NCBI GenBank assembly: GCA_026874595.1
Contig: CM049319.1
Span: forward strand, 38,385,473-38,449,472
Direction of reading: 5' to 3'
Origin: Sipunculus nudus
Lineage: Eukaryota; Annelida; Sipuncula; Golfingiida; Sipunculidae
DNA length: 64,000 bases
The notes beneath the pieces were generated by a model. That model worked only from the letters and a program-made list of their open reading frames with translations. It made no database searches and was not told the origin of the DNA. The first letter of the stretch is position 1; each line of letters opens with the position of its first letter. Made by a program: the position numbers and the translations under genes. Positions 51,601 through 60,600 of the stretch are shown here, in pieces.

Positions 51601-54600
51601 TTATGGAAGAAAGAACTGATGTGTCAAATTTGAAGAAAAAATCTTCAATACTTCCTAAGTAGGTACCTTGGGTCAATGGGGTCACATTAAACCTAGACTT
51701 GCAAAAATTTGACCTTGAATATCAAGGTCAAGGTCACTTGATATCGAACTCCTCTGAGATTTTGGGTAGGAACTAGGAACAAAGAGTGTTTAAAACTTTT
51801 GAGGAAAATATGCAGCCCTTCTAAAGTTATAATGTTCACAAGACAATAACTATAATTCGGCTGACTTGACCTTGAAGATCATGGTCAAGGTCACAAGGTT
51901 TCAAACTTGTCTGAGAAATTGGTAGGAACAATTGGTGTACAAAATTTGAGGACAAAATGATAATAACTTCAAAAGTTATGAGGTTAACAAAAATTTCACA
52001 TTTCGGCAGATTTGACCTTGAAGATGGTCAGGGTTAATGGTTTCCTACTCATCCAAGATTTTGGGATAAACAATGAGTGTTTTAATTGAAGGAAAATTTG
52101 CAATTGGCTTATCATAACAAAATTTTGTCTTTAAAAATGAGATACCTGAGGTACTGATGGGTTTTCTTCCTTTTATAGACAAAAATCCTACTGAGCTAAG
52201 AATCATACATACATGGGGTGGTGACTAAAATGTACTCTCATGCAGATATATTTAACATTGATGACTTTCACATTTTCCAAGATTCATCAATATTAGGCAA
52301 TGTACTGTTGCCAGAATATCAGTAAATATTTATCATTTATCAAAACCTTGTTTAGTTTCAAATGTATCACACTACTGTAATACATACATGCTAGGTAAAT
52401 GATTAGCCACATGACATGACCTTAAGCTGAAGCTTGAAACAGGTCAAAATCTGTACTGAGGAGGCACCGGGATGTGGAACATTTAAACAATGTACCCGAT
52501 CACCATGATAAAATACCTCATACACTGCAGGTATCTCTGAACACAAACTAGATAAGTACAACTTGCTGCACATATCTCAACTTACCTGCATTTTCTCATA
52601 TTTTTTCATTTGATCTTCAAGCTTACGGACTGAGCTGTCAAGTTCTAATTCCAATGACTTGTTTCTCTCCATGATCTCTTTCAATTCCTGAAATATTGGA
52701 AGCATAATGCAAAATTTAAAATATTTTGATGATTCTTATTGTAGCTGGAAAATGTAATGGCCTTTTTTATATGTACTTTGTATATGTACTGTGGCTGGAC
52801 CACAAAACAGTGACAGTTCAATCATTTGGCTGAGCAGGAGAAATGCCTACTAACAATACACGTAGATGCATAGTGTAAGTAACACAGCACAATTAAGATG
52901 GCTCTGTGTTATGAAATTATGTATGTCTTTCAATTTTATATATAATTCAAATGGGTAATCTTAATTTTTTATATGTAAATCATGTGAGAATCAGAGACTG
53001 GCTGTATCTGCTGTTCCGATACTTAAAAGACCAGTCTTCAATCAACAAAACTACCTAATGTTCGAAGAAGAATGACAGCTGTAATTAGGTCCTTTTTTTT
53101 AAATTATTTTTTGTTCTAAATGCTGCCTCCATTTTTTAATGCGTTCTTAACCAAGTATATGATCATCTGCATTATTCCATTCCCGTTTTTTACTGTGTGA
53201 CAGGGCCATATCATATGCTTCCTCTCATTTTATATCCTGGTGTTAACCAGGCTAGGTGACTACTGCACCTGCGGGGACTGGGTTTGTAATCATCCCCATT
53301 CTAGTCATACTATGGAGGAACCTCAAAAGGCCCACTTATTTGTGAATGAAATCACGGCCTTTGGGCACAGTCTTTACATTAAGCCTGTGGAATGTTAACC
53401 CTTGGTGGGCGGCCCTACCATGAAAAATCTCAATACCACAGCTGAGATTTCAAGTCATGATCTCCTGGCTTTAAATCTTGTGCTATGGGCCACAGAAGCC
53501 AGTGTAATTGATAGAATAAATCCTCCTTCAGGAGAGCTTTGTGTTATTCAAAGACAAGTTGAAATTATGCATATCGTTAGATAATTATAGTTATCAGCAT
53601 TGAATCAGGATGGAATAAATAACAAACCTCTCATAATACGAAGCCAAAGAGTTGGGCAAAATGGTTGGGAGAACCTTCTTTGTAAACTGAGTTGTTAAAA
53701 ATTCAGTTTGTTTAAAGCCATATGTCTCAGGGATGGCTGCCACAAGGCACATACAGTCCTTGAGTTTATAAGACTGATACTCTGCAGATATGTCCATGCT
53801 AGTTCTAGAGGAATGAACTGGACCAGTATCTTCTACTGAAGCAGAACACAGGTTTATCAGAGGGAACACGGCACAGCCTTCATGCTAACACTCTCAACAT
53901 GTACCAAGGTGAAGAAAACAGCATCTACAAGAAAAAGTAGTTTTACAGAAAATATTTGTAAATTTATGACGGTTATTCTCTCACCTTTTCCAGGTTTGAC
54001 TTTTCTTTCTCAGAATCTGACAGCTTTTCTTCAAGCTTTTTCAATTTTACAGGTGAGCCAGTTTTGTCAGCGACCTTGAGTTCTGCCTTGGTTACCATCT
54101 CCTTGGCTACCATCTCCTTGGCTGGTGATGGGGATTTCTCTTTTGACACAGCATCATCAAGGTCAAATCCCAAGGATATACCTGATTCTGATGGATTAAC
54201 ACCAGAACCACAACTAGAAATAAACATAATCAACAGTGCAGTCTATACATTGAATTACTACAGTTGCAATGCTTAGTAACTTGTGATGAGCAAAATAGAA
54301 GCTATAGCCAAAACAGGTAAAGCTACTGAAGTTAAAGATCTTATTTCAAACCAATGACAGTTTCTTTAAGATGACATACCTGGAGAGTGACCTTGAGTCT
54401 GCACTTCCTTCTGTGTCCAGCATGTTCTTCAGTTCAGGGTCATTATGTTTCACCTCCTTTGACAGTTTGGCTTCACTTTTACAATTACAATTACAATTAT
54501 CACTTAATATAGCGCACTTTCATACTCTAATAGTCAAAGGCGCTTAACAGTCATTACAGAGTTCAAATAAATGAGTCTTTAATCCTGACTTAAATAATTC

Positions 54601-57600: not shown

Positions 57601-60600
57601 CTATATTCCACCTCAATATAGAGGTGGTCATCAACTCCTGTTGGCAGACTATTCAGTAAATTCATGATTTTCTCAATTTTTTCACTAAAGAACACATTGA
57701 AATTTTTAGCAAGCTCTACATCATCACCTATGGGAAATGTTGTTACTTCCTTCCTGAAAAGTAGTCTATTTGCATGTTTATATACATCCTTATAATTAGA
57801 TTTACAGCTGTTGAAAATCTCTTGGTGATATTCTCTGACTTTCCGACAAACTGTCCGACTAAAATGCTTTCTCTGTAAAGCAAATTCTTCCCAATTCTTT
57901 TGATTCTTCAGTCTTTTCCAAATGCGTTCCTTTCATCTCATAACTGCCTTTTCTAATTTAATTGTATTGTCAAGCCAAGATGGTCTTTCCCACTTTGGTC
58001 CATACTTTATCTTTTTCGTTTTTAATGGTGCTACTTTGTCCATGATGGAGGATAATGTCTCATTGTAGAATGAGGTCAGTCCACATGAATCCATATTAGT
58101 TTCAAATTAATGGATAATCAAAAGGTGATGCTGAAGCACCGAATTGAATTAAAGATCTTATTTCAAACCAATGACAGTTTCTTTAAGATGACATACCTGG
58201 AGAGTGACCTTGAGTCTGCACTTCCTTCTGTGTCCAGCATGTTCTTCACCTCAGGGTCATTATGTTTCACCTCCTTTGACAGTTTGGCTTCACTTAAACT
58301 GGCCGCCCCGTTCGGCTACAGAAAAATAAACTCAGTCAATTATCTGCAAATATATAAACTATTTTGATAAAAACATGTAGAGTTGTAATTAGATGACTCT
58401 CTGGGGAATAACTTCTGAAGATTTCTTCTGTAATTTCAGTGACAAGGATATATGCCTGATGTTGACTGTCAGGGCCAAAGGGGTAATGGTCATGCCTCAG
58501 ATTGTGACATCTTCAATACATTTAACCACCTCATTTTGTTATACAGAAACCAAAGAGGTTATTGGGGCCATAAAAGCCCTCAATTAGGACCAAACTATGC
58601 CACACAAACATTACATGGGTGATAATGTTCAGCAATTTTCAAGAGTGCTGCCTGGCAGCTACCAAGTACTGGGTTTTCAAGGCATCTGAAATTTGCAAAA
58701 TGCACTTTCTCTCATACATGTTCATCTTTGGTAAACCTTTACATGGCAATTGCTTGTACGGTTTTTGAGATAATGTGGATGAAACAAATTCAAATATAGC
58801 TGCTTGGTGGCCGTATTGTATTTCTGGTGGGTCTGAAATTTGACAATACACATCCAATCATGGGTGTTAATCTTTAAAAAAAAATCCAGCAAACTGCTTG
58901 AATGATTCTTGAGATTATGCATGCAAAGTGTGATTGATCAACCACATATATGGTGCATTCCATTCCACAGGTTTCATATTTTGTCAAAATTGTGTTAAAC
59001 TTAATCATATTTAAATATGGTAATATTACTATAAATAACAGGGGTGTCAGGTAGTTTTTTGTCTGGAGCAGCAGATTGGAGAAGCTGGGTTTCTCATGAC
59101 AACACTCACACCCAAGTACTGGTATATATCATCATCTACACTGACAACCTATGAAAATATTCAATCTTTAAAATTTACAAACATCCAAATATATGTAAAA
59201 CCAATTTCACAGATTTTTTTCTATTTTAATACTGACAAATTCCTTCCAAATATTACATTCTTAAAAAAATGAAATTCCATATTAATAGAACAAAAATATC
59301 TTACCTTGCTTTCAGTGGGGAACATATTTTCAAAGTCTGTGTCAAAACTCACTGCAGATGTGATGTTCTTGTCCTGTCCCTTAGAGCCCAGGAATGGGTT
59401 CTGTACACTATCCTTCCCAGGGTCCCCAGCAGCCTGAATAAGCATCACTCTAATTATTATTACAAAATATAAGATAAACATACATAGAAATAAAACAATG
59501 TCATGTAAAAACAAGTGACCCATGGGTCATGACGCTCAGCTGACTGGGAAGAGATTCGCAAAAGGAAATTTTATCATCTGAAAGGTAGTATATTCCCATT
59601 CAACTGAAGCATCAAACAGATTAACCAACAGGCCAAGATTGTGTCTGTATTTATATATCTCAAAAATAGAGAAAAGCGTAAACTTAAAAAAAAATACATG
59701 TGGCTTCACCAATCTGCAGAAACTAATAAAAACACTTAATGGTCAATATCCATGCAAAGAATCATAGTGATCTCTGCATTAGTTGTTCAGATACTTCAGC
59801 TTTTGTATCAAATTTTCCATATTTCTGAGGGATACTTCGGAGTCCTATAGCTTGAAGAATATGGGCAACAGAGACCTAATTTCAGGTTTCCACAGACACT
59901 TTTCATGGGCCTCCTTGCAACACAAGAATGATGATTCTAGGTCCAGTTGTCACAATTTGTGCCACGTTAACAGATAACAGCATCCTTAAAGGTCTCAAAA
60001 ATAGAGAAAAAAATTCGTAAAAAATTGAAAAATATAGGTGGCACCACCAGTCTGAAGAAAGTATTGTAACATCTCATGATCAATATGTATGCCAAAAATC
60101 ATGACCATCAGTGATGTAGTTAATCAGATATTGAAGTTTTTGTATGAAATTTTTTACTATTCTGGGGGATATTTTGGGGCCCCATAGCTCAAAGGATATG
60201 AGTAACAAAGACCTAATTTCTGGTTTCCATTGAGACTTTTCATAGGTCTCTCACTGTGTCAAGAATGAAGATTCCAGGTCCAGTCTATACGATTTGTGCC
60301 CTGTTAACAGATATTCACATTTTTAAAGGTCTCAAAAATAGAGAAAACAATTTGTAAAGAATCGAAAATTACAGGTGGCGTCACCAGTCTGCAGAAACTG
60401 ATGAAACATCTCATGATCAATATGTATGCTAAAAATCATGACCATCAGTGATGTAGTTAATGAAATATTGAAGTTTTTGTATGAAATTTTTGACTATTCT
60501 GGGGGGTATTTTGGGGCCCCATAGCTCAAAGGATATGGGTAACGGAGACCTAATTTCTGGTTTCCATGGAGACTTTTCATAGGTTTCTCTCTGTGTCAAG

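Follow-up and report, generated by a model that had tools for sequence, protein, structure and literature searches.

In the 64,000-nt stretch of Sipunculus nudus DNA analysed here (the window; C14:38385473–38449472 in a 1.43-Gb assembly of 153 contigs), we identified a 5′-truncated LINE between two copies of a 147-bp direct repeat that holds the end of a coding exon and its splice donor. One retrotransposition of an L2-like LINE with a long target-site duplication (TSD) very probably made the whole arrangement; the label L2-like is our assumption, based on L2-like motifs and the tail. As judged from the sequence, this exonic insertion seems to carry its own repair, with the reading frame and the donor kept and a decoy donor and 3.8 kb added, the latter figure including a later nested insertion. 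The event is of a known kind, and the present case is a clean natural example in which the placement relative to exon and donor is exact. The gene, both repeat copies, the LINE, the element nested in it and the splice sites discussed below lie on the minus strand.

The exon and its repeated end

The intact coding exon is 119 nt long (58197–58315), with an acceptor that ends at 58316 and a donor, CAG|GTATGT, that starts at 58196. In-frame joins to both neighbouring exons, together with splice-site scores, agree with the earlier note, which had described this exon as complete. The upstream exon (59305–59432, 5′ boundary provisional) joins in frame at 59305 and has its donor at 59304; on the other side, the exon joins in frame to the downstream coding exon (53985–54213). 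We take the gene to be CCDC91-like from its likeness to an approximate human CCDC91 sequence. Three stretches from its later, coiled-coil exons match that sequence collinearly on the minus strand (51315–51232, 33240–33121 and 30648–30571), the first of them at 64% over 28 aa. The joined exons matched no Pfam family.

A repeat search of the window placed the two repeat copies at 58149–58295 (copy 1) and 54332–54478 (copy 2), 3817 nt apart and identical at 145 of 147 positions (99%); on sequence grounds, a match of this length and identity is not due to chance. Copy 1 comprises the last 99 nt of the exon, its donor and the first 48 nt of the intron. Copy 2 consists of an acceptor-less exon end, a decoy donor and 48 nt of intron, and the motif CAG|GTATGT is thus present twice, at 58196 and 54379. 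Base-by-base comparison found differences at repeat positions 46–47 only, with GG in copy 1 and AC in copy 2; because they are adjacent, these may represent a single double-base change. At these sites (58249–58250 and 54432–54433), copy 1 contains GAG GTG and copy 2 GAA CTG. The coordinates that had been given for the recurrence of the exon end, donor and 48 bp of intron (54478–54332, immediately after an (ATTGTA)n tail) proved exact, as did the count of two differences in 147. When the animal's own genome was queried with the exon, there were two candidates, both scored and both within the window; neither a paralogue nor a second haplotype bearing an empty site was found.

Anatomy and ends of the LINE

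The LINE is in two parts, which are separated by the nested element. Part 1 (57453–58146) is the 5′-truncated, post-endonuclease region and is 91%, 89% and 86% identical to three other copies in the genome (L004, L005 and L009), all of which extend further upstream. Part 2 (54479–55999) contains the reverse transcriptase, the 3′ UTR and the (ATTGTA)n tail, as indicated by an RVT_1 match and by a family 3′ end in the same place. The earlier note described a 5′-truncated LINE whose 3′ tail is followed immediately by the repeat. Truncation and tail stand; however, homology to the family starts at 58146, a 2-nt junction separates it from copy 1, and the separate element of ~1.45 kb interrupts it. 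The junction (58147–58148), where the upstream bases of the relatives differ, may be filler or changed LINE bases.

Both ends are fixed by other family members, which bears out the proposal that the LINE entered a coding exon. A search of the same genome with the LINE 5′ part returned 30 rows; the window accounts for two, and the remaining 28 include some that are fragments of a single copy. With the exon added to the query, nine other copies start matching between 58142 and 58146 (L004, L005, L009 and L031 at 58146; L006 and L020 at 58145; L021 and L019, the latter identical with copy L012, at 58144; L018 at 58142), and none of the fetched copies matched past 58146 into the exon side of the query. 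Upstream of this point, the eight others align with the upstream sequence of L009 itself. The family runs on where the window LINE stops, which makes that end, 2 nt from copy 1, a truncation. The search with the 3′ part gave 43 rows in 30 loci, drawn from the best 40 of 88 candidates; among these the family 3′ end is (ATTGTA)n, and the corresponding end of the window LINE (54479) touches copy 2 at 54478.

A 3′ end common to the relatives, a variable 5′ truncation and direct repeats that abut both ends of the element, with the 2-nt junction on the 5′ side, are features of target-primed LINE insertion. The upstream part of L004 matched PF03372 (Exo_endo_phos; E 1.7e-9), which points to an APE-type endonuclease, and L016 gave a match below the cut-off (E 1.2e-4); RVT_1 was matched in L011 (E 1.8e-31) and in the window at 54883–55746 (E 2e-22). 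The order, endonuclease upstream of reverse transcriptase, is that of non-LTR retrotransposons with an APE-type endonuclease; the two domain scores come from different copies, each read in its own frame. Through truncation, the window LINE has lost its endonuclease. The closest solved structures by sequence, 8c8j and human LINE-1 ORF2 (E ~1e-12), do not settle the clade. In a test for the 3′ hairpin that precedes short repeats in L2-type LINEs, the 3′ end (54560–54470) folded no better than shuffled sequences (z 0.13), and the repeat tail is present. Eel UnaL2 likewise has a short-repeat 3′ tail in the account excerpted from PMC3747384, with TGTAA as its unit and ATTGTA here.

A probable single insertion and its alternatives

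Based on this arrangement, we propose that the LINE endonuclease cut the non-coding strand at a point 20 nt inside the exon (GTTT/AAG, read on the coding strand) and that reverse transcription began on the (ATTGTA)n tail and ended early, which would leave a 5′-truncated copy. A cut of the other strand after a further ~147 nt, at a point 48 nt inside the intron, and filling of the stagger would then have duplicated everything between the cuts; both nicks and their order are inferred. Because the stagger (147 nt) exceeds the distance from nick to donor (99 nt), copy 1 retains the exon and the donor, and the LINE effectively lies within an intron. The TSD reading predicts an empty site in which GATCTTTAA is joined directly to CTTCAG in the intron. 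The idea that the repeat is the target duplication of the LINE, already put forward in the earlier note, is the best reading in view of both LINE ends and of compatible ages, and the upstream copy does restore exon and donor as had been suggested. The description of the insertion as "neutralised by a duplication" is correct in that the duplication restores the exon, but its wording implies two events where one suffices.

TSD length in the family was surveyed in the 30 loci of the 3′ search, from which the window's own locus and four with the 5′ end outside the locus (L035, L038, L045 and L059) were left out. Clear anchored TSDs were found in 4 of the remaining 25 (L034, 16 bp; L046, 12 bp; L058, 17 bp at 94%; L041, ~53 bp, lying within a 61-column alignment at 92%) and doubtful ones in three (L042, L047 and L060), whereas 18 scanned loci had no anchored TSD, exact matches of 6–7 bp not being counted. 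The 25 loci are not all independent, since the pairs L037/L040 and L051/L054 look like duplicated segments. L037 and L040, ~6 kb apart on C11, are LINE copies with closely similar flanks at both ends, and so the LINE-holding segment itself seems to have been duplicated. Among 12 pairs of five-prime and three-prime loci, one anchored TSD was identified (L012/L049, 36 bp at 86%); it is the weakest of the five, and L049 is also counted among the 18 loci lacking one. The 147-bp TSD is the longest of a variable set in this family, the others measuring ~12–53 bp, and with many copies unresolved the length distribution is poorly known. Insertion points carry at least two T at or beside them in five of six sites (the window, L034, L046, L058 and L041; L012 is unclear), with boundaries ambiguous by a few bases.

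It had been argued that LINE TSDs are usually under about 20 bp and that 147 bp is exceptional. The length is indeed the greatest in the family, but relatives reach ~53 bp and longer cases are in print. For ZfL2-2, an L2 element, in chicken DT40 cells, 20 of the 25 wild-type insertions are reported to carry TSDs; a single TSD measured 1228 bp, and the other 24 insertions had alterations of at most 20 bp (PMC2666801). The likeness to the present case lies in a LINE with 5′-truncated insertions and the capacity for a long TSD; in contrast, those insertions were obtained in cell culture, and the excerpt describes no exon rescue (PMC2666801). Human L1 TSDs of more than 100 bp never exceed 10% in the HeLa data cited by PMC5223499, and they are reported to be far commoner in cells deficient in nucleotide excision repair. 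Its authors note that exons can be duplicated in this way, whereas the element is L1 and the cells are mutant human ones (PMC5223499). Among the literature matches listed, in which few subscription journals were covered, none describes an exonic LINE insertion in nature that its own TSD had rescued.

The ages estimated for the LINE and the repeat agree, within wide error, with a single event. In a tree of 20 rows and 801 columns, the window LINE has an end branch of 0.016 (1.6%) and falls in an unresolved group of eight rows including itself (support 93/96); dating relied on this tree, dating by the stop codons of the LINE having been dropped. The repeat copies diverge by 1.4% (2/147), with 95% limits of 0.17–4.8%, so that the agreement is not a sharp test. 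Taken as a neutral clock, the branch predicts 3.1–4.7 differences between the copies where two are seen (P(≤2) 0.15–0.40).

Among the features that speak against a single event are TTTAA at both ends of the 147-bp segment, which is also expected from tandem duplication by microhomology, and the many family loci without an anchored TSD. The 147 bp might first have been duplicated in tandem between the two TTTAA sites, the LINE entering later at the junction and leaving either no TSD or one of 2 bp. The T-runs at other family insertion points would make such a junction an acceptable target, and the 18 of 25 loci lacking an anchored TSD indicate that TSD-less insertions may occur. We nevertheless consider this order of events very improbable, as it requires two rare events to coincide within a few bases, resolved family TSDs measure 12–53 bp and the compatible ages fit one event.

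Less probable still is an origin in repair, in which a break that formed as the LINE inserted, or later, was healed with a 147-bp copy of neighbouring DNA placed on the 3′ side of the LINE. Linked duplications of up to 619 bp in humans, some with exons and splice sites, lend this precedent in the excerpted text of PMC2671141; they resemble the present repeat in being short and linked, but are ascribed there to break repair and are not bounded by the two ends of a retrotransposon. Such repair does not account for the position of copy 1, whose end lies 2 nt from the LINE truncation, or for that of copy 2, which starts at the tail. Least probable is an artefact of assembly where the LINE insertion is heterozygous, a case in which the 1.4% difference could pass as heterozygosity: the window contains no N, the exon query matched two places in the assembly, both in the window, and there is no reason for an erroneous join to place copy 1 at the truncation point of the LINE.

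Splicing and other elements in the window

Under the single-insertion reading, splicing would proceed mostly through the upstream donor and remove an intron of 3983 nt (58196 to 54214). Beside it stands the interval from the decoy donor to the same acceptor (54214–54379), 166 nt as computed from coordinates, which we infer to be the pre-insertion intron. An approximate weight matrix scored both donors equally (9.64); the matrix is crude, since the acceptor of the next exon (54214) falls outside its 25 best sites. Copy 2 had been said to lack only an acceptor, and it has none of its own; however, the same matrix found acceptor-like sites in the LINE just upstream, at 54704, 54664 and 54631, 250–325 nt before the decoy donor. 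Two of these (54704, 9.0; 54664, 8.7) exceed the exon's own acceptor at 58316 (8.1) on this approximate scale. Translation of four pseudo-exons from the LINE sites, and of a giant exon of 3936 nt, runs into a stop in every case. Rescue would thus hinge on the upstream donor being the one that is spliced, and the near-harmlessness claimed in the earlier note is a conjecture, the insertion having left a decoy donor and acceptor-like sites.

Because the old 166-nt and new 3983-nt introns compete for one acceptor, the locus can serve as a natural experiment on intron versus exon definition. We tentatively raise the possibility, which we hold to be doubtful, that LINEs with very variable staggers (~12–147 bp) can land and persist in coding exons whenever the stagger passes the nearest splice site, since such an insertion would immediately become intronic and leave behind a truncated copy of the exon carrying a decoy splice site. 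This makes a countable prediction on which exonic LINE insertions survive: if true, genomes with such LINEs should be enriched in partial exon copies beside LINE ends, and the decoy splice sites would feed new alternative splicing.

The element nested in the LINE (56000–57452, limits approximate to ~2 bp) spans ~1.45 kb and contains 3.6 copies of a 280-bp tandem unit. None of 21 fetched loci, representing ~18 distinct places, has it at this position of the LINE, and it most likely arrived after the LINE. The empty site in the relatives shows an overlap of ~2 bp. Related copies are present in the window at 12507–13699 and 40488–42108, and all three share their ends, one near GCCAAAACA and the other ATTCTAGTT; these 280-bp-unit elements appear Helitron-like.

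Tandem Repeats Finder (TRF) identified a minisatellite in the CCDC91-like gene (49007–50520, minus strand), with a 61-bp unit in ~24 copies, which starts with the 3′ part of a coiled-coil exon and its donor. Between 50464 and 49147 there are 16 occurrences of CAG|GTAGGT, the exon's own included, and the rest of the window has none on either strand. An exon end and its splice donor seem here to have been turned into a tandem array of decoy donors. Elsewhere in the window, a 674-aa open frame (21005–23029, minus strand) matched DUF4371 (E 4.8e-17), of a kind associated with hAT-type transposases. The open frames 21167–20820 and 20830–20474 look like its continuation in other frames, and the element is thus probably broken.
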